From the IMG/VR virus record IMGVR_UViG_3300048507_000357, positions 1 to 38,131 of that record: a stretch of 38,131 nucleotides of DNA; one strand, 5' to 3'. Each line of letters opens with the position of its first letter. Within the stretch, counting starts at the first letter, position 1. The stretch is from a virus. The notes under the pieces were generated by a model. The model had not been told where the DNA came from, did not search any database, and saw only the letters and a list, made by a program, of their open reading frames with translations. Both the position numbers and the translations under genes were made by a program. Below, piece by piece: positions 5,930 through 34,619 of this stretch.

Positions 5930-7513
5930 ATGGCTGCAATTATAACTGACGTATTGAGGGTCAATAACGCCAGAAACTTTATTGATAAGGTTAGGGATCC
6001 CAATAAGTCCTACTATACCTTTATTGGTTTGCCCAATGCCACTGAGGTGCAGGCAAGTTGGAATACTGCACCACCATCCCCTAGAGATTGTCTTGACGAT
6101 GACAATGGATATTGGGATAACATGATTGCCTTAAAAAAAATTGGGACAGATGATGTTAGACCTGTTGTAAGAAAGGTTGAATGGGCATCTGCTACCATTT
6201 ATGATATGTATCGGCATGATGTAAATAGGAATAATTTATCTAGACCATCAAATAAAACTAGTTTATATGCTTCAAACTATTTTATTGTAAATAGTGAGTT
6301 TAGAGTTTATATTTGTTTGAATAATGGTATAGATCCAGAAAACCCAAGTGGCAGACCTTCACTGGACGAACCAAAATTTACAGACTTAGAACCTAGAGCA
6401 GCTGGAACCAGTGGTGATGGTTACATTTGGAAATATCTTTTTACTATTAGTCCAAGTGATGTTATTAAATTTGATTCTCTCAACTTTATTCCACTTCCTG
6501 TAGATTGGTTAACTAATAATGATTATAGAAGTGTTAGAAGTAACGCTACCACTAGTGGACAATTAAAAATAATAACGATTACTAATAGAGGTTATCTTGT
6601 TGGTCCCCCAAACACCACATACTCTAGAGTTCCAATTCGTGGAGACGGATCTGGAGCAGAATGTACAATTGTTGTTAATAATGATTCTAGAGTAGAATCT
6701 GTAACTATATCTAATGGTGGATCTGGGTATACTTTTGGAAGTATTGACTTAATTGGTGGTAGTGTGCCAACAGGATCTACTACTCCATTATTTGATGTCA
6801 TTATTCCACCTCAAGGTGGTCATGGTGCAGATATCTATAAAGAACTTGGATCAACAAATGTTTTGATCTATTCTAGAATTGAGAATAATGACCAAAACCC
6901 CGACTTTGTTACTGGAACCAATATTGCAAGAATAGGTATAGTTGAAGATCCTCTTGGATATTCTTCAAATACTTTAATTAGTGACGATAGAGTTAGTGCT
7001 TTATATGGTGTTGTTCTGAAAGGTCTATCACCGAATCAAGACGATTTTAAAACAACATCTTTTGAACCAAATGATTTTATTCAACAAACTATTGGTACTG
7101 GTTCTACTGCTTTGGGTAGAGTTGTAACATATGATGCAGAAACTGGTGTTTTGCGTTACTGGCAAGATAGATCTTTAGTTGGATTCAATACTGATGGAAC
7201 TCAAAGATTAAATCCAGAGTTTGGACTGAATTTAAACTTATTCACATCATCACCCACCACAGGTGGTGATCTCAAAATTACTGGTGGTTCAAAAGAATTA
7301 TACATAGATGAGGGATTTGGAACCGATACAAATCCAGGTATTAGTACCGTCATAAATAATAAGACATACTACTTGGGTCAAACATTTATTGCTGGTGTAG
7401 CGAACCCAGAGGTCTCAAAGTACACTGGCAATATCATATATGTTGACAATAGACCTTCCATTCTTAGGTCGGTAAATCAAAGAGAAGATATCAAAGTTAT
7501 TTTGCAATTTTAA
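5930..7513 (+). CDS. gp8: Baseplate wedge protein gp8
   Basis: This 527-residue protein matches T4-like gp8 in its N-terminal half (start MAAIITDVLRVNNARNFID; later 'GDGYIWKYLFTISPSD', about residues 158-173). T4 gp8 is 334 residues, so this one is longer. The extra length lies in the middle and C-terminal part, where a 'GGSGY' module (about residues 258-276) and a 'GTGSTALGRVVTYD' segment (about 386-400) occur. gp8 is a dimeric wedge component that contacts gp7, gp10 and gp6 in T4. A late-promoter box sits 27 bases upstream, and a weak AAAGG lies about 15 bases before the ATG. The next gene starts 6 bases after the stop. Confidence 0.86.
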   Translation: MAAIITDVLRVNNARNFIDKVRDPNKSYYTFIGLPNATEVQASWNTAPPSPRDCLDDDNGYWDNMIALKKIGTDDVRPVVRKVEWASATIYDMYRHDVNRNNLSRPSNKTSLYASNYFIVNSEFRVYICLNNGIDPENPSGRPSLDEPKFTDLEPRAAGTSGDGYIWKYLFTISPSDVIKFDSLNFIPLPVDWLTNNDYRSVRSNATTSGQLKIITITNRGYLVGPPNTTYSRVPIRGDGSGAECTIVVNNDSRVESVTISNGGSGYTFGSIDLIGGSVPTGSTTPLFDVIIPPQGGHGADIYKELGSTNVLIYSRIENNDQNPDFVTGTNIARIGIVEDPLGYSSNTLISDDRVSALYGVVLKGLSPNQDDFKTTSFEPNDFIQQTIGTGSTALGRVVTYDAETGVLRYWQDRSLVGFNTDGTQRLNPEFGLNLNLFTSSPTTGGDLKITGGSKELYIDEGFGTDTNPGISTVINNKTYYLGQTFIAGVANPEVSKYTGNIIYVDNRPSILRSVNQREDIKVILQF

Positions 7514-7519
7514 AGGATT

Positions 7520-10500
7520 ATGCCACAAGAAACTAATCTCAACGTATCTCCTTATTTTGACGACTTTGATCGAAATAAAAACTATTATAAGGTACTATTT
7601 AAACCTGGACTACCAGTTCAGGCAAGAGAATTAACGTCTTTACAGTCAATATTACAGGATCAAGTAGAACAAATTGGAACACACCTCTTTAAAGAGGGTT
7701 CCATGGTAATTCCTGGACAGATCAATTATAACAATGAGTTATTGTCTGTTGAAGTTGAAGAAGAATACCTTGGAATTAATATTTACAGTATTATAGACGA
7801 TCTACTGAATACCAACATTAGAGGTGCAAACTCTAATGTTACCGCAAGAATTCTTTATTATGTGGAAGGGGATGCATCAGAAAGAAACTATGTAACTCTG
7901 TTTGTAAATTACACGAACACAGGTGCTGAAGGAAAGCAAGTATTTGACGATGACGAAGTTCTTCTTTTAGAAGATAGTTTTATTGGCCAAGAGATAAATC
8001 TTCAAGCAGGTCAAGGAATTGCTAAAACAGCATCAGTAGATGCAACATCTATTGGATCAGCTATTTTCTTATCTGATGGCGTTTATTACTTAAGAGGAAC
8101 CTTTGTTAATGTTCCTGGACAAACACTGATTTTAGATGCTCATGAGAGTAATCCTTCATACAGGGTAGGTTTAGAAATATATGAAGAATTTATATCTTCT
8201 GGCCAAGACCCATCTTTAACAGATAATGCAAAAGGATTTAACAATTATGCTGCACCAGGTGCTGATAGATTAAAAATTACTGCAGTTTTAGAAAAAAAAG
8301 ATCTCGATTCTAGAAAGAATGAGAATTTTGTTGAATTAATGGTCATTAGAAATGGCAATGTTCAACATATTGAAGATAAAATTAAGTATAATGAATTAGC
8401 AGAAGAACTTGCTAGAAGAACTTATGATCAATCTGGAAATTTCTATGTAAAACCATTCTCAATTCACCCAAGAGAATCTTTAAACGATAATAAAGGAAAT
8501 AATGGAGTCTTTAATAAAGACCAATTAACTTATAATAGTAATATTCCTAGTGATGATTTAGGAACTTATAAAATTTCTCCAGGTAAAGCATTTATTCGTG
8601 GTTTTGAAGTAGAATCTGGAACCGTACATTATCTAGATTTTAATAAGACTAGATCGACAAAATCTTTATCCGAACAAGGAATAAATTATTTTACTGGACC
8701 AACATTAACTCTTAATAGAGTTGTTGGAGCACCCAGACTCGGATTTAGTACAACTTCAAATATAAGTCTAAGAGATGCCAGAATTGGTGACGCTTCAACT
8801 ATAGTTTCTGGTAAAGAAATTGGTGTTGCTAGAGTATATGACTATGCTTTAGAATCTGGTTCATATTCTAGTGTAGCACCTAATATTAATGAGTGGGATA
8901 TCTCACTATATGACATTCAACCATACACTGAGATGGTATTGAATCAAGCATCCACTCTTAGTGTTCCAACATTTATTCAAGGAAAGTCTAGTGGAGCAAC
9001 TGGACACTTAAGATTTGATACTACAACTGGAATTGTAACGGCATACAATACTAAAGGTATATTTTTAAAAGGTGAGAAGTTAGTATTTAATGGTATCGAT
9101 GATGGCAGAATATCTGCTGCGGTCACTTCCTATAGTATTGCTGATGCAAAGTCAATTTACAGTTCTGTTGGTGCTGGACAGACTTTCAATGCTAACATCA
9201 AGCAATCGAAAAAAATTGAATATCCATCAGTAACAATAACCCCAAAATCAGGTTCCGCACCTGGCATTTCCACAGTAACATCTACAGGGGCAGAGTTTAT
9301 AAATGTTGCAAAACCTGGAGATCTGGTAGAATACACAAATTCTTTATTATCTGGAACTAAGGTAAAGTCATATGCGAGGATTACAGATATTCCTAGTAAT
9401 GATAGTATTGCTATTGTTGGGATCAATACAGTATCACTTCTTAATGACGGCGGTTTGCCAACCGCAAGTATTAGTCCCTCAGACTTTGCAATCCTCGGAT
9501 CTAAGTTCCAATCATCATCAGACAATACTTTATACACTCCTCTGCCAAAAAGTTTCATAGCTTCTGTTGATCTAGATGATGCTCAAATTACAATTAAAAA
9601 AGAATTTGATGTTACTGTAACTGCAAATGCTACAAATAGTATTCAAGCAGGTGATAATGAGACATTCCTCCCATATGACGAAGAACGTTATGTTCTTATT
9701 AATTCAAATGGAGAATTTGAGGAACTTACAGAAGACAAATTCCGATTCGCTAATGGTAATAGAGAACTTAGAATATTTGGAGTTTCTACCTTTGGTCCAG
9801 CAAGACTAATTGGAACCCTCAAAAAGACAAATATTAAAAATAAAGTAAAAAATTCTATTACTACAAATTCAATTATTGTCAATAAGTCAAAATTAGTATC
9901 TTCGGGTATTGGTTCAACAACTTTAGATGATGGATTGGTTCATGGTAATTATGGTTATGGTTTAAGAGTTCAAGATAGGGAAATTTGTCTCCTCGAACCA
10001 GATGCAGTTAAAGTGTATGGTGTCTACGAATCTTCTGACAATTCAGATGCAAAACTTCCTTCATTAACACTGTTTAATCTTAGTGGACCAACTGGATCTG
10101 TAAGTGATTTTGTTATTGGAGAACAGATAACTGGACAGACTAGTGGTGCTATTGCAATATACGTTGAATTAAGTACTTCTCAAGTTGCAAATATTGTATA
10201 CTTAAATGATTTAAAATTTGAAAATAATGAAGATGTAATCACAAGTTCTTCTGGAATAACTGCAAGTATTCAACAACTTGATGATGGTGATGAGAACATT
10301 CTTTCTAGATATAACTTAGATTCTGGTCATAGAGAAACTATTCTTGACTATTCTCGTTTAGTTAGAAAACCAGGAACGAAAGATCCAAGAAGAAGTTTAA
10401 GAGTTGTTTTTGAATCTGCAGAGTATACCGATTCTACAGAAGGAGACATTACAACTATTTCTTCTTATGATCAATTCGATTACTGTGAACTTCCAACACT

Positions 10501-13500
10501 TAAGGAAGGATTAAAACTTACTGATGTATTGGATATTAGACCAAGAGTTAGACCATTTGATTCAAATTCGACTAATGTATCTCCATTTGAATTTGCAGCA
10601 AGAACATTCTCTGATGGTACAAACTCAGCAAAGAATATTTTAGCATCTGATGAGTCAATATTAATTTCGTATTCTTATTATTTACCTAGAATTGATAAAA
10701 TATATTTTAATCCAGATGGAGGATTTCAATTAATTAAAGGTGTTCCTAGTGAAAATCCGTTACCACCACTTCCAATTGAAGATTGTCTAGAAATTGCTAC
10801 GATTGCACTTCCACCATATGTTTGTAATGCAGAAAATCTAGAAGTATCTTTAAAATCTCATAAAAGATATCGAATGCAAGATATCTCTTTACTTGAAGAT
10901 AGAATTAAAACTCTTGAGTATTATACAGCATTATCTCTTCTAGAATCTAAAACTGAATCACTTCAGATTGCAGATGATGCTGGATTGACTAGATTTAAGT
11001 CTGGTATTTTTGTAGATAATTTTACTACTACAAGAAATCAACTCAAGACAACTAAAGTAACCAATTCTATTGATCCAGTTAACTTTGAAATGAGACCAAC
11101 TCACTTCACAACAGAAGTGGACATGCTTATTGGATCTAGATCACTTATTGGTATTGGTACTACTTCTGCAAATAGTGCAAGTACTGCGGATGTTACTGAT
11201 ATTATTGGATCTGGTTATAGAAGAACAGGTCAACTTATTACTACAGACTATATTGATAGACTGTCTATTCAACAAAACTTTGCAACTAGAGTTGAGAATG
11301 TAACTCCGTATCTTGTTGTAACATATACTGGTAATATTGTACTATTCCCAACGTCTGATATTTGGGTTGATCAAGTAAGATTGGCACCACAGAGAATTGA
11401 AGTTGACGATTACACTCAGACTAGACTTCAACTTGAGTCTTCAGGATATGACGCCCAGACTGGTCTAGGACCCATACGTTGGGGTTCATGGGCAACTACT
11501 TGGACTGGATCTAGTGCTACATCTAGCAGCAGAACCGTACAGACAGGATCCTCCTCTAGAAATACTGGAAGAGCTATTGTAACCACAAATAGCTTCAATA
11601 CAACAACTACAACAACCACTACTAGAACTGGTAACTCTACCAGAGCAGGTAGTAGATTAAGAGTCTCTGAGACAACTGAGACAATTAATGAGGGAGATAG
11701 AGTTGTAAGTAGTGACGTGATTCCGTTTATGCGATCACGTAATATTGAATTTACTGGCAGAAGATTTAAACCAAGAACTAGATTATATGGATTCTTTGAT
11801 GGTACAGATGTAAATCGTTTTATAATTCCAAAATTGATTGAGATTAGAATGATTAGTGGATCGTTCACTTCTGGTCAAATTGTTCAAGGTAGAATGCCAA
11901 GTAGTGTAACTAGTGGCGTTGCAATTCCAACAATTTCATTTAGAGTTGCAAACTCTAATCATAAATATGGACCGATTAGTGCTCCAACTGACATATTTAC
12001 AACAAGTCCATATGATGAGAACTATACAATACCCACACAGTATTCAAGTTCTTCAATTATTCTAAACCTGGACACAAGATCTCTTGCAGAGAGTAATCAA
12101 TCACTTTATCGTGGATGGATTAGGACGGGAATGCGTCTGAGAACCAATACTGGTGAAGCTGAAATAACAAATGTAAGATTAGTTACAGATCAAGTTGGAT
12201 CTATTTTGGGTTCTTTCTTTATTCCTGATCCCAACAGACCATCAAACCCATCTTTTGAAATTGGAACTAAAGTATTCCGTCTTACAAATAATGCCACAAA
12301 TAGTCAAATTGTTGGACTTACCGACACATCTGGCACAGAACCTTACTTTGCTTCTGGAACACTGAATAATGTTCAAGAAACAATTAGATCAACAAGAAAA
12401 GCAAGATTTGATAGAGTCCCAACTCAAGAAACGATTCCTGCGAGAGATGTTAGTGTCACATCAACCTCGGCATCTAGTACTAGTACATCAGTAACACCGC
12501 TACCACCGCCACCGCCGCCACCACCGCCACCACCACCACCACCAAGACCACCAGTGTCTCCTCCTCCAAGGCGTCCACCCAGAGCACGTGTAAGGCGGCC
12601 GTTCGTTTGGCTTGGGCGACGACGACCATCCCCACCACCGAGGCGTCCACCCAGAAGACCGCCCAGAAGACCACCCCCACGCCCACGTAGACCGCCCCCA
12701 AGGCGTCCACCCAGACGTAGAGGTAAGGATCCCCTTGCACAGTCTTTCAGTGTAGCGGAGAATCCAGGACAATTTGTAACAGAGATCGAAGTTTTCTTTA
12801 GAACAAAAGATCCTGTACTTCCTGTTATCATTCAATTAAGACCGATGATTGCAGGTGTACCATCTGAACAGATCTATCCGTTCGGTGAAGTAATTCTCGA
12901 TCCTAAAGATGTTGTCGAATCCTTTGATGCATCTGAGCCAACTACTGTTGTTTTCCCTGCTCCAGTTTATCTCTCGGGTGAAACTGAGCACGCAATCGTT
13001 CTTCTATCAAATTCTAATCAGTATACTGCTTGGATTTCTAGAATGGGTGAGGTTGATGTAAGTACATTACTGCAACCAGAGTCAAGACAAGTTGTTGTTT
13101 CAGCACAACCACATTTAGGTTCTCTGTTTAAATCTCAAAATGGATCTACTTGGAACCCAAGTCAATATGAAGATCTTAAGTTCAACTTATATACTGCACA
13201 ATTTGAAGAGACTGCTACGATTTCTTTCTTCAACCCAGAATTGGGAAGAGGAAATAGTCAAATTGCAAATCTCGTTCAAGATTCTCTAGAGTTTGAATCT
13301 AAGAAGTTGATCATCGACACTAATGATATTATCAATACAAGCGCAATTGTTTTTGGCAATACTATTGTTCAAAAAGAAACTAGTGCTAGTGGAGATTATG
13401 TAGGTGTTGGTGGATCTGCAACTGGAGATTTGTCAATTGTTAATGCTGGTATTGGTTACACACCATCTGACGGTAATCAGTTTACATTCTCAAATGTTGT

Positions 13501-15211
13501 ACTGACATCCTTTAGTGGAAGAGGTAAAAACGCTACCGCTGATATTACAATTGGCGCTGTTGGAGGAACAAATGGAGTTGCTATTGCAGCAACAATTAGT
13601 TCTGGTGGATCTGGTTATCAAGTTGGTGATGTGCTTAGTGTTACTTCTATTGGTAATGATCAACTTGGAAGAAATCTACAACTGTCTCTGGGACAAATAA
13701 CAGGAGCAAATGAACTAATTCTAGACAATGTTCAAGGTGAATTTGAAGTTAATGTTTCAAAACCACTTCAATATGTAAGTCCTTCCACAGGAATTACCAC
13801 AATGGTATCTACTGGTGGAGCAGATATTGCGATCTCCGATTTTGCATTATCTTCACCACGAGAAGATGGATTGCATATCAAGGTTAATCATAAAAACCAT
13901 GGTATGCACGCTACTACTAATATTGTAAGTATTAGTGGGGTAAAACCAGACAGCAAGTCAACAACGATTGCTGCAGAATATACAAATTCTGATTCTGGAG
14001 GAATTAGTGTTGGAAGTACTAGTGGATTTGAATCTTTTGAAAATGTGTCCGTTGGTTCTACAAACCCAGGTTACGCTATTATTGATGATGAAATTGTTTC
14101 GTACACAGGAGTATCTGCGGGTCAGTTAACTGGTATTACTAGAGGTATTGATAATACAAATTCCTTTACATACCCAGTCAATTCCCAAATCTCCAAGTAT
14201 GAGATTGATGGTTTCTCTTTGAGACGTATTAATACTAATCACACTCTGTCAGATGCAATGGGTTCTAGACCTATTACTTTAGACAGTTACCATATTAGAG
14301 TTAATACCTCCACAAATGGAATCAATAGAAGCACTGGAGTTGGATTTGGATGCTTATATGCAAATTCTTCTAAGTCTGCTGGTGGTGAACAAATCTTCGC
14401 GACCCAGAACATTCAATATGAAGCAGTGAGACCAATTGTTCAAACAATGTCTCTACCAGGAACAGATATTAAAGCATCTGTTCGGGGTATTACTGCTACC
14501 AGTGTTGATGGTAATGAAGTCTCATTCGTAGAGACAGAAGACACCCCAATTAATCTAGCAGAAGATACTTATCTACCCGAACCTAGAATAATTGCTTCTA
14601 GAGTCAATGAAGTTGCTAAAAATTCTACGCAACCTGGCAATAAATCAATGGAACTTACGTTTACATTGAATTCTGCTAACGCCAACATCTCGCCAGTTAT
14701 TGACCTTGATAGAGTTGGTATGGTACTTATCTCAAATAGAGTTAACGCACCAATTGCAGATTATATAAATGATTCTAGAACAGCATCACTATCTGAAGAT
14801 CCAACAGCATTTATCTATGCCAACACACCAGTTGAACTTGAAAATGCTGCTACTTCGATAAAGATCTTCCTCTCGGGATATGTAAATACATTTGGAGACG
14901 TTAGAGCATTCTATTCTATCAGCAATACTGCTGATCCAGATCCACTCTACTATCCATTCCCAGGCAATAAGAACTTGGATGTAAATGGCAAGATCATTGA
15001 TTTTGCTAAGTGTGATGGTTCTTCCGACAAGGCAGTTCCAAAAACAGATGTTCTTGCTGCTGATAGTGCTGATTTGATCTACCGAGATTATGAATTTACG
15101 ATGGATAACTTGCCAGAGTTTAAATACTTTACTATTAAATTAGTTGGTACATCAACAAATCAAGCATATCCACCAAGAATCAAAGATCTTAGAGTAATTG
15201 CATTAGCATAA
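7520..15211 (+). CDS. Giant DUF4815-type virion structural protein with Pro/Arg tract
   Basis: The protein has 2563 residues. Residues about 10-70 ('FKPGLPVQARELTSLQSILQ', then an F-K-E-G-S motif) match the start of the DUF4815 family, which in T4-like cyanophages is a large baseplate or tail-fibre-base protein. Residues about 1320-1375 are Ser/Thr rich with an eight-Thr run. Residues 1660-1734 form a Pro/Arg tract that begins with 14 consecutive prolines after PL. A new domain starts at 1735 with 'GKDPLAQSF' and 'FVTEIEVFFRTKDP', a beta domain common in these virion proteins. GxGY modules lie near residues 1974 and 2030. AAAGGA before the ATG is the likely ribosome site. It occupies the place of T4 gp9-gp12, none of which I recognise here. 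Confidence 0.82.
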   Translation: MPQETNLNVSPYFDDFDRNKNYYKVLFKPGLPVQARELTSLQSILQDQVEQIGTHLFKEGSMVIPGQINYNNELLSVEVEEEYLGINIYSIIDDLLNTNIRGANSNVTARILYYVEGDASERNYVTLFVNYTNTGAEGKQVFDDDEVLLLEDSFIGQEINLQAGQGIAKTASVDATSIGSAIFLSDGVYYLRGTFVNVPGQTLILDAHESNPSYRVGLEIYEEFISSGQDPSLTDNAKGFNNYAAPGADRLKITAVLEKKDLDSRKNENFVELMVIRNGNVQHIEDKIKYNELAEELARRTYDQSGNFYVKPFSIHPRESLNDNKGNNGVFNKDQLTYNSNIPSDDLGTYKISPGKAFIRGFEVESGTVHYLDFNKTRSTKSLSEQGINYFTGPTLTLNRVVGAPRLGFSTTSNISLRDARIGDASTIVSGKEIGVARVYDYALESGSYSSVAPNINEWDISLYDIQPYTEMVLNQASTLSVPTFIQGKSSGATGHLRFDTTTGIVTAYNTKGIFLKGEKLVFNGIDDGRISAAVTSYSIADAKSIYSSVGAGQTFNANIKQSKKIEYPSVTITPKSGSAPGISTVTSTGAEFINVAKPGDLVEYTNSLLSGTKVKSYARITDIPSNDSIAIVGINTVSLLNDGGLPTASISPSDFAILGSKFQSSSDNTLYTPLPKSFIASVDLDDAQITIKKEFDVTVTANATNSIQAGDNETFLPYDEERYVLINSNGEFEELTEDKFRFANGNRELRIFGVSTFGPARLIGTLKKTNIKNKVKNSITTNSIIVNKSKLVSSGIGSTTLDDGLVHGNYGYGLRVQDREICLLEPDAVKVYGVYESSDNSDAKLPSLTLFNLSGPTGSVSDFVIGEQITGQTSGAIAIYVELSTSQVANIVYLNDLKFENNEDVITSSSGITASIQQLDDGDENILSRYNLDSGHRETILDYSRLVRKPGTKDPRRSLRVVFESAEYTDSTEGDITTISSYDQFDYCELPTLKEGLKLTDVLDIRPRVRPFDSNSTNVSPFEFAARTFSDGTNSAKNILASDESILISYSYYLPRIDKIYFNPDGGFQLIKGVPSENPLPPLPIEDCLEIATIALPPYVCNAENLEVSLKSHKRYRMQDISLLEDRIKTLEYYTALSLLESKTESLQIADDAGLTRFKSGIFVDNFTTTRNQLKTTKVTNSIDPVNFEMRPTHFTTEVDMLIGSRSLIGIGTTSANSASTADVTDIIGSGYRRTGQLITTDYIDRLSIQQNFATRVENVTPYLVVTYTGNIVLFPTSDIWVDQVRLAPQRIEVDDYTQTRLQLESSGYDAQTGLGPIRWGSWATTWTGSSATSSSRTVQTGSSSRNTGRAIVTTNSFNTTTTTTTTRTGNSTRAGSRLRVSETTETINEGDRVVSSDVIPFMRSRNIEFTGRRFKPRTRLYGFFDGTDVNRFIIPKLIEIRMISGSFTSGQIVQGRMPSSVTSGVAIPTISFRVANSNHKYGPISAPTDIFTTSPYDENYTIPTQYSSSSIILNLDTRSLAESNQSLYRGWIRTGMRLRTNTGEAEITNVRLVTDQVGSILGSFFIPDPNRPSNPSFEIGTKVFRLTNNATNSQIVGLTDTSGTEPYFASGTLNNVQETIRSTRKARFDRVPTQETIPARDVSVTSTSASSTSTSVTPLPPPPPPPPPPPPPPRPPVSPPPRRPPRARVRRPFVWLGRRRPSPPPRRPPRRPPRRPPPRPRRPPPRRPPRRRGKDPLAQSFSVAENPGQFVTEIEVFFRTKDPVLPVIIQLRPMIAGVPSEQIYPFGEVILDPKDVVESFDASEPTTVVFPAPVYLSGETEHAIVLLSNSNQYTAWISRMGEVDVSTLLQPESRQVVVSAQPHLGSLFKSQNGSTWNPSQYEDLKFNLYTAQFEETATISFFNPELGRGNSQIANLVQDSLEFESKKLIIDTNDIINTSAIVFGNTIVQKETSASGDYVGVGGSATGDLSIVNAGIGYTPSDGNQFTFSNVVLTSFSGRGKNATADITIGAVGGTNGVAIAATISSGGSGYQVGDVLSVTSIGNDQLGRNLQLSLGQITGANELILDNVQGEFEVNVSKPLQYVSPSTGITTMVSTGGADIAISDFALSSPREDGLHIKVNHKNHGMHATTNIVSISGVKPDSKSTTIAAEYTNSDSGGISVGSTSGFESFENVSVGSTNPGYAIIDDEIVSYTGVSAGQLTGITRGIDNTNSFTYPVNSQISKYEIDGFSLRRINTNHTLSDAMGSRPITLDSYHIRVNTSTNGINRSTGVGFGCLYANSSKSAGGEQIFATQNIQYEAVRPIVQTMSLPGTDIKASVRGITATSVDGNEVSFVETEDTPINLAEDTYLPEPRIIASRVNEVAKNSTQPGNKSMELTFTLNSANANISPVIDLDRVGMVLISNRVNAPIADYINDSRTASLSEDPTAFIYANTPVELENAATSIKIFLSGYVNTFGDVRAFYSISNTADPDPLYYPFPGNKNLDVNGKIIDFAKCDGSSDKAVPKTDVLAADSADLIYRDYEFTMDNLPEFKYFTIKLVGTSTNQAYPPRIKDLRVIALA
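12497..12721 (+). repeat. GC-rich Pro/Arg codon tract with 15-nt repeats
   Basis: Inside the giant structural gene, 14 CCN codons (12503-12544) are followed by Arg/Pro-rich code. The 15-mer AGGCGTCCACCCAGA occurs exactly three times, at 12569-12583, 12641-12655 and 12701-12715. The spacings are 72 and 60 bases, so frame is kept. The region is far richer in GC than its flanks, which points to local expansion of a low-complexity linker. Confidence 0.9.
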
Positions 15212-15212
15212 T

Positions 15213-15431
15213 ATGGAAAATGAACCTCGTTATTTGAAAGTTGAAGGGCATAGTTATCTCGTAAGGGATACTATGTCCAATGCAATTATCAATAAGAATC
15301 AAACAGAATTTCATCAATATAAAACTTTACGTAAGATAAAGAATGATGAAAAAGATAGACTTAACAAACTTGAAGATGATATCAGTGAAGTTAAAGATCT
15401 TCTAAGACAACTAGTAGACAAGGGTCTGTAA
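15213..15431 (+). CDS. Conserved small hypothetical protein, coiled-coil C-terminus
   Basis: This 72-residue protein starts one base after the stop of the giant structural gene and ends one base before gp13, so it is probably translated by coupling. Residues about 38-70 have heptad-like spacing of I/L ('LNKLEDDISEVKDLLRQL'), which suggests a short coiled coil. The N-terminus ('MENEPRYLKVEGHSYLVRD') does not match a T4 protein I know. Small proteins of this kind are found before gp13 in cyanophages. Its place suggests a neck, tail or assembly role, but function is unknown. Confidence 0.75.
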   Translation: MENEPRYLKVEGHSYLVRDTMSNAIINKNQTEFHQYKTLRKIKNDEKDRLNKLEDDISEVKDLLRQLVDKGL

Positions 15432-15432
15432 A

Positions 15433-29189: not shown

Positions 29190-29852
29190 ATGAACAATTA
29201 TCATAGATTTTTAGATATTAGAGAATACATCCCTAATATTGATACTTCTTTGCATCAAACTGATGGTCTCCGATGGCCAGAATTTCATAAAACATTTGAA
29301 TTATCTGAACTAGGCAATGACAAAATAGAACCCTGGTTGAATACCATGGGGTTTACGTCTACTTGGATAGAATTTTTTTATACTCCACCAGGAGATGAAG
29401 GAGTAATACATTCTGATAATGTTTACTATGCAGATTGGGCAAAATTAATTTTTCAATTTGGTGGTGAGGGTAGCACTATGAGATGGTGGACCTCAGATTC
29501 TGTAATGAGAGTAAGCACCAGTGCAGAGCAAGTTTGCTCAATGGATATTCCTGAGAGAAGTGAATATAATGTTGGTGACAGAACAGACGATCATTATCAT
29601 GGTCAAGTCTTAGTAACTAGAGAACAATATGCAAATTTAGAACATGAAGTTGAAGTTGGTTCATGTAGTCTAGTAAATGTTGGTCCTCTGCATAGTTCTT
29701 ACAATCCATCATCGGAATCTAGATTTACATTAACTATTGCGTTAATGGATATGAATACTCAATATGAAAGGAGAATCTTATGGGAAGAAGCATTAGAAGC
29801 ATTCAAACCTTACACAGTTGATTCTTCAATAAACCTTTGCGCCGCAAGATAA
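29190..29852 (+). CDS. 2OG-Fe(II) oxygenase-like protein
   Basis: A TTG six bases upstream is in frame, but the ATG at 29190, two bases after the portal stop, is the better start and gives 220 residues. The sequence shows the iron-binding pattern of 2-oxoglutarate dioxygenases: His74-x-Asp76 ('VIHSDN'), distal His168 ('NVGPLHSSYNPSSESRFTL') and Arg178 ten residues later, the usual 2OG-binding position. 'FFYTPPGDEGV' before HxD is also typical of hydroxylase-like folds. Many cyanophages carry 2OG oxygenases of unknown substrate. The 3' end overlaps the convergent radical SAM gene by 50 bases. It has no T4 counterpart. Family is fairly sure; the substrate is unknown. Confidence 0.72.
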   Translation: MNNYHRFLDIREYIPNIDTSLHQTDGLRWPEFHKTFELSELGNDKIEPWLNTMGFTSTWIEFFYTPPGDEGVIHSDNVYYADWAKLIFQFGGEGSTMRWWTSDSVMRVSTSAEQVCSMDIPERSEYNVGDRTDDHYHGQVLVTREQYANLEHEVEVGSCSLVNVGPLHSSYNPSSESRFTLTIALMDMNTQYERRILWEEALEAFKPYTVDSSINLCAAR

Positions 29853-31569
29853 ACACTGTGTGTGGGTCATTTTTATCAAACTCTTTGAACTCAGTATCTA
29901 CTTCATATTTGCCATCTTCACATTCAATATAATAAGGATATTGAACATCCTCATCAAAAATAAATGCTCTTTGAAGTTTTAAAATATCATCATCAATTGG
30001 AATCAATAGTGTAGCAACTTTATCCAAAATATCAAATATATCTTTTTTATTATTAAACATAAAAGCAAAACTTCCTGCATGTAAAGTATGTCCATGCTTT
30101 CCTTGATCTAAAATTTTGCCAGTTTTCATATAGTGAGATACGGATTTTTCAATCTCCTTGTAATGTTGACCTATAACCCCAGTATCCTTTTTAATAAACT
30201 CAAACAAAGCATCATAGAATATTCTATAATCAACATTTAAATTTTTATAAAAATGCTTTGCGACTAGTTGAGTATATCCAGCAATATGAAATTGAATTAT
30301 TAACCATCCATAAAGGTATGCTTCAATAAGTTCATCATTAGTCATAGTATTGGTCTCTGAAATCAATTCTATGACTTCTTTAATATCATGATCTTCTTTA
30401 CTGAAGGACATGTAATCTTCTGCTTTGATAGTCTTAATTCCATGGACTTCCCTCGACAAAGAACTATTCAGATCAGTATCACCAAACATTTGACAGAACC
30501 AAACATCAATAGAATCATGTTGTCCACACTGAAGAATTTGGGCAAATCCATTTTTCCAAGAGTCTAAAGTTTCTTCTGGTAAACCAAGAATTAGTTCAGT
30601 ATACGTTTTAACTCCATATTTTTTACTCTTCTCAATTTGCTCAGATATCTTATTGATACTCATATTTTTTCTCTTGATCGATTTTAATGTAGGTTCATTC
30701 ATACTCTGAACACTCAAGGTTACACCTCTACTAATATCCCCAAGAATTTGTGCAATTTCAAAGATGACTTCAGTAGAATTCTTTGAATATTGAACATTAA
30801 TTGCTTCTAGTTTACCACGATCTGCTGCACTACGAAAGAGTTTTGCAATTTCAAGGTCTCTCTCTTTAAACATTCCAAAATTTGCATCCGCATTAAATAT
30901 AAATCCAACATTGTTTCTTGCTGCCCAGTTTATATCATCCGTAATTCTTTCTAATCCAAAGTGCTTGACCTTTTGATATGTCATTCCACCCCAGTCACAA
31001 TAAGTGCATCTATGTGGGCACCCTCTGTTGGTCTCTACTGTCATAGACCATAAAACATCTGGATTATCAGATACTATTTTACGAAAGACACCGAGTTGAT
31101 ATGGACTTTGAAAATCCATATCTTCAATTCGATTCTTCCGATATATCCTTTCAAATGGTTCCATAGATATAACTTTTCTGAGTAGATCTAAAAACGCTTC
31201 TTCTCCCTCAGATACAATAATACAGTCAATAAAGTCATACTTTGTAAGTTTTTCTGTCGCTTGTGGTCCACCAAATTCAATGATGCATTCTGGATACTTT
31301 TCTTTTATTAATTTTGCGACATGTAGATTATATTGTTCGTTCCAAATATATGTACTAAACGCACAGACTACGGGATCTTCTAGTCTTGCAACTAATTTTT
31401 CAGGGTCTTCTCGTTTAAATATTAAATCTTTTAAATAAAATCCACTAGCTACATCGTCATATTGCATACAATATGCCCAAAGACATCCAACACTATACGG
31501 TAACCAATACGTGTCTTCATTTCTTACTTCTACCGCATACTGCGGTTGGAACATGTATAAGTTTCTCAT
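29803..31569 (-). CDS. Radical SAM protein with B12-binding-like N-domain
   Basis: The 588-residue protein carries the radical SAM cluster motif Cys184-x3-Cys188-x2-Cys191 ('NRGCPHRCTYCDWGG'). Residues about 55-135 look like the Rossmann-type cobalamin domain found before such cores ('STYIWNEQYNLHVAKLIKEK', 'FGGPQATEKL', 'SEGEEAFLDLL'), but I see no DxHxxG cobalamin-ligand motif. 'LSVQSMNEPTLKSIKRKNMS' (285-304) and 'YTELILGLPEETLDSWKNG' are usual elpFH-type core motifs. The C-terminal 200 residues are not recognised. It is the second gene of a minus-strand pair and overlaps the glycosyltransferase end by 53 bases (38 if Met6 is used). Chemistry could be methylation, rearrangement or peptide modification; the substrate is unknown. 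Confidence 0.85.
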   Translation of the reverse strand: MRNLYMFQPQYAVEVRNEDTYWLPYSVGCLWAYCMQYDDVASGFYLKDLIFKREDPEKLVARLEDPVVCAFSTYIWNEQYNLHVAKLIKEKYPECIIEFGGPQATEKLTKYDFIDCIIVSEGEEAFLDLLRKVISMEPFERIYRKNRIEDMDFQSPYQLGVFRKIVSDNPDVLWSMTVETNRGCPHRCTYCDWGGMTYQKVKHFGLERITDDINWAARNNVGFIFNADANFGMFKERDLEIAKLFRSAADRGKLEAINVQYSKNSTEVIFEIAQILGDISRGVTLSVQSMNEPTLKSIKRKNMSINKISEQIEKSKKYGVKTYTELILGLPEETLDSWKNGFAQILQCGQHDSIDVWFCQMFGDTDLNSSLSREVHGIKTIKAEDYMSFSKEDHDIKEVIELISETNTMTNDELIEAYLYGWLIIQFHIAGYTQLVAKHFYKNLNVDYRIFYDALFEFIKKDTGVIGQHYKEIEKSVSHYMKTGKILDQGKHGHTLHAGSFAFMFNNKKDIFDILDKVATLLIPIDDDILKLQRAFIFDEDVQYPYYIECEDGKYEVDTEFKEFDKNDPHTVFILRRKGLLKNQLCKV

Positions 31570-32473
31570 TTATAGCCAAGTCGTGAAAGTATTTATCATC
31601 CCATCTGGAGATGTCTCTCTCCATCAGAACGTCAGTGTTCTTACTATAGGTAAAAAACTCGTCAAGCGTGAACTTGTCTCTATCATACCACCACCACTCA
31701 TGATATGCTTCATAGCATTTTACAAAACTAAGTTTTGGTTCCCAAGAGCGTTTCCCCAATACTCCAATGTGACTAATACCAGTAAAGTATGGATTCATCG
31801 GTATTAGTGGTAGAGAATAACCACAACCAGATTGATTGATAAAATAATCTGGACCGCCAGAAGTTCCTTTATATCTTAGTCCATCATGAATACCAGAATC
31901 TCTATCAATGTAAATTGCATTGGCAATATTATAATCAAATTTAAACTTACCGTTGGGGTAATGCAGACTAAGAAGTTTTTTTATATAGTCCCTGTTTAAT
32001 AAGCATGGACCCAAAGAATATTCTGATTTTGTGGGATGCAAATAAAAAGGTATTACCCCTGGTGTCTCGAATCCTAACTGCAAACAATCCCACCCAATCG
32101 GAAGACGTTCAATTAATTCACCCCATTCAAAGTGCCAGCGACTAACAAGCGACAAATCATAATCGTCTTCCATCAAGATCATGAATTCATCATTAGTGTT
32201 ATCAATCCATTCTTGGAAGAATAACAATAGACTTGCAGAGACTATGTTTATATAATGAGAAGTATCTTCCGAGTATGTTCCTTCTAAGTCATCCAAATAC
32301 CATTTAAAAAAAGTCCCATCCTTTGGAAATGGTTCCATTGGTATTCTCGTATACTTCAAACCAAGAGTCTGGAACTGACTCTCCATGTATCTTCTACGTT
32401 CAGTTTTATTAGTTACATTAGTATAGTAAATATGTGGAAGATTCATCAAAAAGTCTTTATTGATATTTATCAT
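31517..32473 (-). CDS. Glycosyltransferase, family 25-like (GT-A)
   Basis: The 318-residue product begins with a segment typical of family 25 (LPS-type) glycosyltransferases ('IYYTNVTNKTERRRYMESQF', 15-34), followed by 'FMILMEDDYDLSL' (97-109), where the acidic EDD is the probable metal/nucleotide-sugar site. 'LGPCLLNRDYIKKLLSL' and 'GGPDYFINQSG' are further parts of that fold. Met10 is an alternative start. It leads the minus-strand pair. The late-promoter box of the 54-residue prohead gene on the other strand overlaps its start codon. It may glycosylate a virion or host surface component; this is inference from family. Confidence 0.75.
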   Translation of the reverse strand: MININKDFLMNLPHIYYTNVTNKTERRRYMESQFQTLGLKYTRIPMEPFPKDGTFFKWYLDDLEGTYSEDTSHYINIVSASLLLFFQEWIDNTNDEFMILMEDDYDLSLVSRWHFEWGELIERLPIGWDCLQLGFETPGVIPFYLHPTKSEYSLGPCLLNRDYIKKLLSLHYPNGKFKFDYNIANAIYIDRDSGIHDGLRYKGTSGGPDYFINQSGCGYSLPLIPMNPYFTGISHIGVLGKRSWEPKLSFVKCYEAYHEWWWYDRDKFTLDEFFTYSKNTDVLMERDISRWDDKYFHDLAINEKLIHVPTAVCGRSKK

Positions 32474-33434: not shown

Positions 33435-34619
33435 ATGTCTAGTGACACTAACTTACAGGAAATGGAAGCAGGCACAACTCAATCCAAGACCGCTGTCAAT
33501 GCTGGTGCAAAGGCAGCTGATCCCATGCAAAAGCTTGCTCCTGGTGCAGTAGCAGGCGAATCTGGATCATACGAAGATCTTGGAGGTCCCACTCCAGACA
33601 ATTATAAGTCTGATGATGAGTCTGCCAAACTCAAAACCCCTGGCGCAACCCTTAAGCAAGTTAAGGATGTTGTAAACAAAGGAGCTAAAGCTGCTGATGC
33701 CATGAAGGGTATGAAGGAGGAAGAAGAACTCAACTCTGAAGAGGTAATCGAAGAGGACGAGGAAATCACCGCCGAGGCAGAAGAAGTTGTATCCGAAGAG
33801 GAAGCAACGGAAGAGGAAGTTGTATCTGAAGAAGAAACATCTGAAGAAGAAGTTGTCGCTGAGGCAGAAGAAATTGAGGAATTTGATGTCTCTGAAGATG
33901 TCAACGCTCTCCTCGATGGTGAAGAGCTTTCGGAAGAATTCCAAGAGAAAGCACGCACCATTTTTGAAGCAGCACTGAGATCCAAAGTCGAAGTGATCAG
34001 AGAGGGTCTCTCTGCTGCATATGACAAAGCATACGAGGAAAAACTCGTAGAAGAAGTTACCGAGATTAAAACTGCTCTTGAAGAAAGAGTAGATTCATAT
34101 CTTGAGTACGTATCCGAAGAGTGGGTTACTGAAAACAGACTTGCCATTGAAAGTGGTCTTAAGTCTGAAATGACAGAATCCTTCCTCTCTGGTATGAAGA
34201 GTCTTTTTGAAGAACATTATGTATCAATCCCTGAAGAAAAATATGATGTGCTAGAGAGCATGGTAGAAAAACTTGATGAAATGGAGACAAAACTCAACGA
34301 GCAGATCGAAAAGAATATCGTTCTTAACTCCCGTCTTTCTGAGTCGGTTGCAGATGGTATCTTTGATGAAGTAACTGAAGGTCTTGCCCTCAGCCAAAAA
34401 GAGAAGCTCGCTTCACTTACCGAAAGTGTTGAGTTTGAAAGTGCAAAAACATATCGTGAAAAACTGGAGATGCTGAAGGAGTCATACTTCTCAGCAAAGA
34501 AAGCTCCTAAAGCTCAGACCGAAAATCTGTCTGAAGAAGTTGATATTGATGCAGCAGGTAATGTACCTGACTACATGAACAACTATCTCAGGACACTGGG
34601 TGCTGTTAGCAAAAAGTGA
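33435..34619 (+). CDS. gp22: Prohead scaffold (core) protein gp22
   Basis: The 394-residue acidic protein sits between protease and capsid genes like T4 gp22 (269 residues). The N-terminal part has an internal duplication ('VNAGAKAADPMQKL' about 21-34 and 'VNKGAKAADAMKGM' about 81-94). Residues about 97-150 are a Glu-rich tract of repeated 'EEEVVSEE'-like units. The rest is predicted long coiled helix ('LDEMETKLNEQIEKNIVLNS', about 278-297), as expected for a core scaffold that is digested by gp21. 'LQE' at residues 7-9 is a possible protease site. A 45-base leader without a late-promoter box follows before gp23, so both genes probably share a transcript. Confidence 0.9.
   Translation: MSSDTNLQEMEAGTTQSKTAVNAGAKAADPMQKLAPGAVAGESGSYEDLGGPTPDNYKSDDESAKLKTPGATLKQVKDVVNKGAKAADAMKGMKEEEELNSEEVIEEDEEITAEAEEVVSEEEATEEEVVSEEETSEEEVVAEAEEIEEFDVSEDVNALLDGEELSEEFQEKARTIFEAALRSKVEVIREGLSAAYDKAYEEKLVEEVTEIKTALEERVDSYLEYVSEEWVTENRLAIESGLKSEMTESFLSGMKSLFEEHYVSIPEEKYDVLESMVEKLDEMETKLNEQIEKNIVLNSRLSESVADGIFDEVTEGLALSQKEKLASLTESVEFESAKTYREKLEMLKESYFSAKKAPKAQTENLSEEVDIDAAGNVPDYMNNYLRTLGAVSKK

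Follow-up and report, generated by a model that had tools for sequence, protein, structure and literature searches.

The closest described counterpart of the gene analysed here is VrlC, a protein common to cyanomyophages and pelagimyophages, which has been used for their phylogeny, appears to replace gp7 of T4 and is considered to be part of a two-layered baseplate (PMC7029224). Despite this phylogenetic use, little is known about what it does. Among solved structures, sequence comparison yielded a single, remote homologue, the DUF4815 protein of the baseplate of Staphylococcus phage phi812 (ORF65; PDB 9euf/9eui/9euj); in the literature searched, neither the structure of this phi812 protein nor polyproline in VrlC was described.

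The window, i.e., the whole stretch of 38,131 nucleotides of viral DNA that was analysed (IMG/VR record IMGVR_UViG_3300048507_000357), encodes a homologue of this protein with a length of 2563 aa, matching Pfam DUF4815 with 205.7 bits (cut-off 30) and phrog_358 over residues 1-2563 with 1972 bits. Its gene is located after a gp8 homologue (5930-7513) and before the gp13/gp14 neck genes, with Pfam matches for gp8 and the neck protein, and the homologue in S-SCSM1 is annotated as 'virion protein VrlC', VrlC being the name used in cyanophage isolates. Among isolates, the protein was most similar to homologues from phages of Synechococcus and Prochlorococcus (40-46% identity). The terminase of the window was at most 77% identical to those of isolates, and thus no close isolate was found in the collection searched. 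Full-length homology, the same gene order after gp8 and the presence of the DPLAQSF domain are shared with the VrlC of cyanomyophages and pelagimyophages (T4-like GC 400, phrog_358, DUF4815), while in most of the isolates read a short connector occupies the place where the window has a proline-rich tract. Judging from these sequence comparisons, the product is a baseplate protein of T4-like marine phages; its presence in the virion baseplate is probable by analogy with the solved phi812 homologue and with the proteins discussed in PMC7029224. The designation 'virion protein' in an earlier note made from the DNA letters was therefore well chosen, being backed by homology to VrlC/DUF4815, phrog_358 and the phi812 baseplate protein. 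The coordinates of the features are given in Table 1.

Table 1. Position of the VrlC/DUF4815 gene, its proline-rich tract and the flanking structural elements within the window
Feature	Position	Strand	Basis and remarks
VrlC/DUF4815 baseplate protein gene	7520..15211	+	Pfam DUF4815, phrog_358, gene order, S-SCSM1 naming
Jelly-roll N-terminal strand(s), domain completed after the tract	11201..11272	+	aa 1228-1251, approximate; AlphaFold2, fold matches
Long beta ribbon, outgoing side, predicted	11492..11719	+	aa 1325-1400; AlphaFold2; same elements in a short-connector relative
Long beta strand, returning side, predicted, ends at the tract	12326..12496	+	aa 1603-1659; AlphaFold2
PLP + poly-Pro run, conserved	12497..12544	+	aa 1660-1675; codons vary synonymously, the amino acids seldom; run usually of 11
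Pro/Arg part, hypervariable	12545..12724	+	aa 1676-1735; relatives compared; modelled with low confidence, as disordered
15-mer AGGCGTCCACCCAGA, copy 1	12569..12583	+	absent from the available portion of the L064 tract
15-mer AGGCGTCCACCCAGA, copy 2	12641..12655	+	common to L064
15-mer AGGCGTCCACCCAGA, copy 3	12701..12715	+	common to L064
DPLAQSF jelly-roll domain, main part	12728..13207	+	aa 1737-1896; alignment, phi812 homology, structural match

The tract contains 14 consecutive proline codons (12503-12544, aa 1662-1675), which are followed by the segment RPPVSPPPRRPPRARVRRPFVWLGRRRPSPPPRRPPRRPPRRPPPRPRRPPPRRPPRRRG of 60 residues, mostly Pro and Arg. This agrees with the composition given in the earlier note, except that the segment also includes ARVRRPFVWLGRRR, an island of residues other than Pro and Arg. 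The three exact copies of the 15-mer AGGCGTCCACCCAGA, spaced by 72 and 60 bases, were likewise found as claimed, and the 15-mer was present nowhere else in the 38 kb. The GC content of the tract was 68% against 36.5% for the whole gene. In shuffles of codons between synonymous places, keeping the same protein and codons, a 15-mer reached three copies in 0.02% of trials (p ~2e-4) and the longest exact repeat of the Pro/Arg part (18 nt) was matched in 0.5%, indicating that the DNA repeats are real and go beyond the amino-acid composition. The RRPPR units were dispersed rather than tandem. TRF called short arrays, including 5.4 copies of 9 bases in the proline run; the tract nevertheless does not form a tandem array of the slippage type, since the 15-mers are dispersed and the run is mostly constant in length with mixed codons, and on the latter two grounds an origin of the run by slippage was rejected. 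Most single matches to AGGCGTCCACCCAGA in viral contigs looked like chance hits, being single copies, and among the contigs with a match only L004, L058, L030 and L050 were VrlC relatives by contig name.

In an AlphaFold2 model based on 43 sequences (mean pLDDT 71, pTM 0.43), the tract (aa 1660-1736, mostly with pLDDT <50) was flanked by the long predicted strand (aa 1603-1659) on one side and by a jelly roll on the other. The structural alignment of the model to phi812 chains 9eui_Q/9euf_0 gave a Z of about 24. The phi812 protein is homologous to that of the window in several stretches, most strongly in the DPLAQSF domain (phi812 chain residues 792-951), and has the same jelly-roll fold; however, it spans only about 167 residues between the stretches aligned with 1236-1303 and 1737-1903, compared to 434 in the window. 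Unrelated single domains, for example that of Cwp84 (chain residues 329-497), matched the model over the range 57 to 710. Because such contiguous domains match so wide a range, the jelly roll is predicted to be discontinuous, starting before the stalk and being completed after the tract, as implied by alignment ranges rather than by coordinates. The short-connector relative L109 was modelled with the same elements as the window (pTM 0.41). With pTM values of 0.43 and 0.41 the relative placing of the stalk and the jelly roll is uncertain, so that the tract could also lie against the particle instead of projecting from it. Foldseek matches to pore-forming toxins (probability <0.25, rmsd near 50 angstrom) were dismissed as an effect of the long beta strands.

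Relatives of the post-tract domain were encoded on 66 viral contigs, and the comparison of the tract itself took in about 80 relatives. The DPLAQSF motif starts just after the tract, and its residues D, P, A, Q, S and F did not vary among the 43 sequences aligned. The joint in front of it was occupied by very different modules depending on the lineage: DUF4214-like modules in distant contigs (exceeding the Pfam cut-off in L100 with 28.6 bits, but not in L101, L105 and L116), poly-Arg in L121 and L122, and a connector of 18-56 residues in most of the isolates read. The lengths of the joint segments are approximate, the pattern-matched anchor of the window, like that of a few further rows, falling later than in the rest. 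All of the closest relatives had PLP with a proline run followed by a Pro-rich part with varying Arg content. At the level of sequence, the joint that directly precedes the DPLAQSF jelly roll is a hotspot for insertions. A spacer of necessary length crossing a gap was rejected as a general need: in relatives 18-56 residues are enough to bridge this joint, hence the length of the tract alone is not required.

At the joint, the VrlC of the isolate Synechococcus phage S-SCSM1 (L137 5029-5322) has an insert of Pro-Arg/Gln/Asn repeats, about 100 residues long and encoded by DNA with overlapping repeat periods of 12-78 bases. This insert resembles the tract of the window in its location at the same joint, its Pro/Arg-rich composition and its repeat DNA, but it consists of alternating Pro-Arg/Gln/Asn dipeptides and has no proline run. 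S-SCSM1 falls outside the proline-run group in the tree, its exact place being weakly supported, and its insert is therefore probably independent.

The net charge of the segment at the joint ranged from -47 to +37 across the relatives. It was positive (+4 to +37) in every member of the proline clade with a readable linker, and basic inserts were also present outside of this clade, in S-SCSM1 (+25), L121 (+12) and L122 (+35), as might be expected if the positive charge served to bind DNA, LPS or acidic surface sugars, thereby aiding adsorption or genome delivery. On the other hand, the charge varied about nine-fold within the clade (+4 in L093 and L077, +37 in L067), and the inserts of sister lineages went down to -47. 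Binding of polyanions is thus possible in the proline clade according to these compositions but would not be a conserved need of the VrlC protein, and as the explanation of the tract it appears unlikely.

The two parts of the tract showed opposite patterns of change. Selection on the proline run was evaluated over the 13 codons from PLP onward in 28 distinct sequences; L064, L075 and L083 were omitted, their contigs ending without a readable start of the run. There were 66 third-position against 7 amino-acid changes, corresponding to 0.54 amino-acid changes per codon in the run compared to 1.72 in the DPLAQSF domain, where 19 of 203 windows of the same size were as conserved as the run. Exactly PLP plus 10 prolines (11 prolines after PL) were found in 15 of the 28, and the run of 14 in the window exceeds this usual length by 3. 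When the domain after the tract was used for a maximum-likelihood tree, the lineages with the run grouped together (27 distinct rows, support 100/99), and a single origin of the run is accordingly the simplest interpretation. By codon comparison, the proline run is under purifying selection at the protein level, and, since selection acts on it, it does something. Conservation of length and residues together with free synonymous change is also what a fixed partner would give, so that the run could be a ligand rather than a rod, docking in a groove of another virion protein and locking a baseplate arm. No known polyproline-binding domain was detected among the Pfam-scanned proteins of the window, which counts weakly against it, the fibre and other baseplate genes lying outside the window; docking of this kind is considered improbable.

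The run of 14 and four additional PPP sites are of the type that stalls ribosomes (at least three consecutive Pro codons), and the tract splits an apparently discontinuous domain; a stall at the run might allow the first 1660 residues to fold before the jelly roll closes. A few prolines are enough to stall a ribosome, however, and a pause therefore does not explain the conserved run of 11, while bacterial hosts have EF-P and relatives of similar architecture and size manage without the run. Even with the stalling of ribosomes by consecutive prolines unless EF-P acts, as stated for example in PMC11611912, a translational pause is very hard to credit as the reason for the tract.

In sharp contrast to the run, the Pro/Arg part changed rapidly. 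Between the window and L064, its nearest distinct relative (the L064 contig stops 189 bases short of the domain), identity was 0.75 in this part and 0.97 in the adjacent domain, and the lengths differed; the corresponding values for the part after the run and the domain were 0.63 and 0.95 for L072 and L074, and 0.51 and 0.87 for L093 and L097. The changes in length kept the reading frame. By these identities, the Pro/Arg part is hypervariable. The suggestion of an expansion with the frame kept was consequently upheld for the Pro/Arg part but not borne out for the proline run, which is conserved, mostly of 11 residues and rich in synonymous change; constancy of the tract among distant relatives, proposed beforehand as an argument against such expansion, was largely observed for the run and not for the Pro/Arg part. 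The word 'recent' in the note holds only in part, as L064, with downstream DNA 96% identical to that of the window, also carries two of the three copies of the 15-mer; no copy of AGGCGTCCACCCAGA was present in L065/L066. Eight contigs of the clade had an end in the 4 kb upstream of the domain, and for five of them it fell in the last 275 bases (p ~7e-5, from small numbers and contigs possibly not independent), and this clustering fits population variation or repeats.

Very different inserts, or almost none, at the same place, the rapid turnover and the sufficiency of short connectors in isolates are all compatible with a permissive surface joint, at which GC-rich repeat DNA turns over with little function beyond maintenance of frame and solubility. 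The strong purifying selection on the proline run and the persistence of the Pro-rich state throughout the clade speak against it, making a merely tolerated insert rather unlikely for the tract as a whole; for the Pro/Arg part, whose function is conjectural, the rapid change would be equally compatible with a segment that is tolerated without being selected.

The near-identical contig L063 differed from the window at 4 of 5196 positions. Three of these four differences were synonymous and packed into 5 bases (12589-12593), and the L063 form GCACGAGTGC (window 12584-12593) makes a perfect short hairpin, so that template switching or mixing of strains is possible there. The tip sequence PFVWLGRRR of the window was found elsewhere only in the near-identical contig L004, which is the same contig as L063. 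Two separate subclades (L079-L081, L085, L086, L089-L092 and L154) had the peptide GLTTTQxAI...EARR midway along the variable part. At this peptide the DNA of L081 and L085 was 85% alike, compared to 77% downstream, albeit over few sites, which hints at a cassette possibly exchanged between lineages. A scan for the GLTTTQ cassette in other genes returned 8 contigs, all of them VrlC (seven loci already known by contig name, the eighth being L154).

The reading that we favor, with a probability of roughly 50%, is that the tract is a variable basic loop on a stiff proline rod, inserted at a hotspot of the VrlC/DUF4815 baseplate protein and probably serving as an accessory contact surface. Rather than a new system, it seems to be a flexible, variable loop on a protein that is already known. 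The insertion would lie between the long beta stalk and the re-entry of the chain into the conserved jelly roll. Polyproline-II spacers and proline-rich linkers are expected to adopt a rod-like conformation, and the run of the window, having the composition of polyproline-II spacers in general, would by inference do the same: its approximately 11-14 residues, which selection maintains at the protein level, may adopt a polyproline-II conformation and make up a stiff rod some 35-45 angstrom long that would hold the loop off the baseplate surface. The Pro/Arg part would be a disordered, positively charged loop, presumably turned over by in-frame recombination or duplication between the GC-rich repeats, and may provide an exchangeable accessory site that touches either another virion component or the surface of the host. 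Neither polyanion binding nor translation pausing is needed for this loop-on-rod arrangement. A single insert would thus combine a selected rod with a free-running loop, and the joint offers a concrete place for testing what the baseplate contacts. A practical warning is that the tract part of the VrlC gene is best excluded from phylogenetic alignments.

More speculatively, and doubtful at present, the joint before DPLAQSF might be a general display site of the baseplates of T4-like marine phages, with the rod and its exchangeable tip forming a selected diversity-generating contact element, passed between lineages as cassettes such as the GLTTTQxAI peptide of the two subclades. If true, these phages would in effect have another system for contacting the host in addition to their tail fibres.

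Several further properties of the locus were recorded. Photosystem genes were looked for as a clue to the host, and none of the psbA/psbD type was present in the window or in 11 longer relatives, all of which are fragments. A tail-fibre island between VrlC and gp14 has been described (PMC7029224); the clade of the window, unlike that arrangement, has no fibre genes between VrlC and gp13, which follows directly after a gap of 219-266 bases (15212-15432 in the window), and a gp13-like gene is located downstream in the relatives as well. The VrlC gene is split in L102-L104, L107 and L108, where a distinct gene begins a few codons before DPLAQSF and is preceded by stop codons in that frame. Two minus-strand genes at 29803-32473, one for a radical SAM/B12-binding protein of 588 aa and one for an unknown protein of 318 aa, are located between the portal gp20 and the prohead protease, within a cluster of T4 structural genes that is otherwise on the plus strand. 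Finally, a scaffold-like protein gene (33435-34619) includes a 33-base tandem repeat of 2.4 copies with a Glu-rich unit at 33779-33856.
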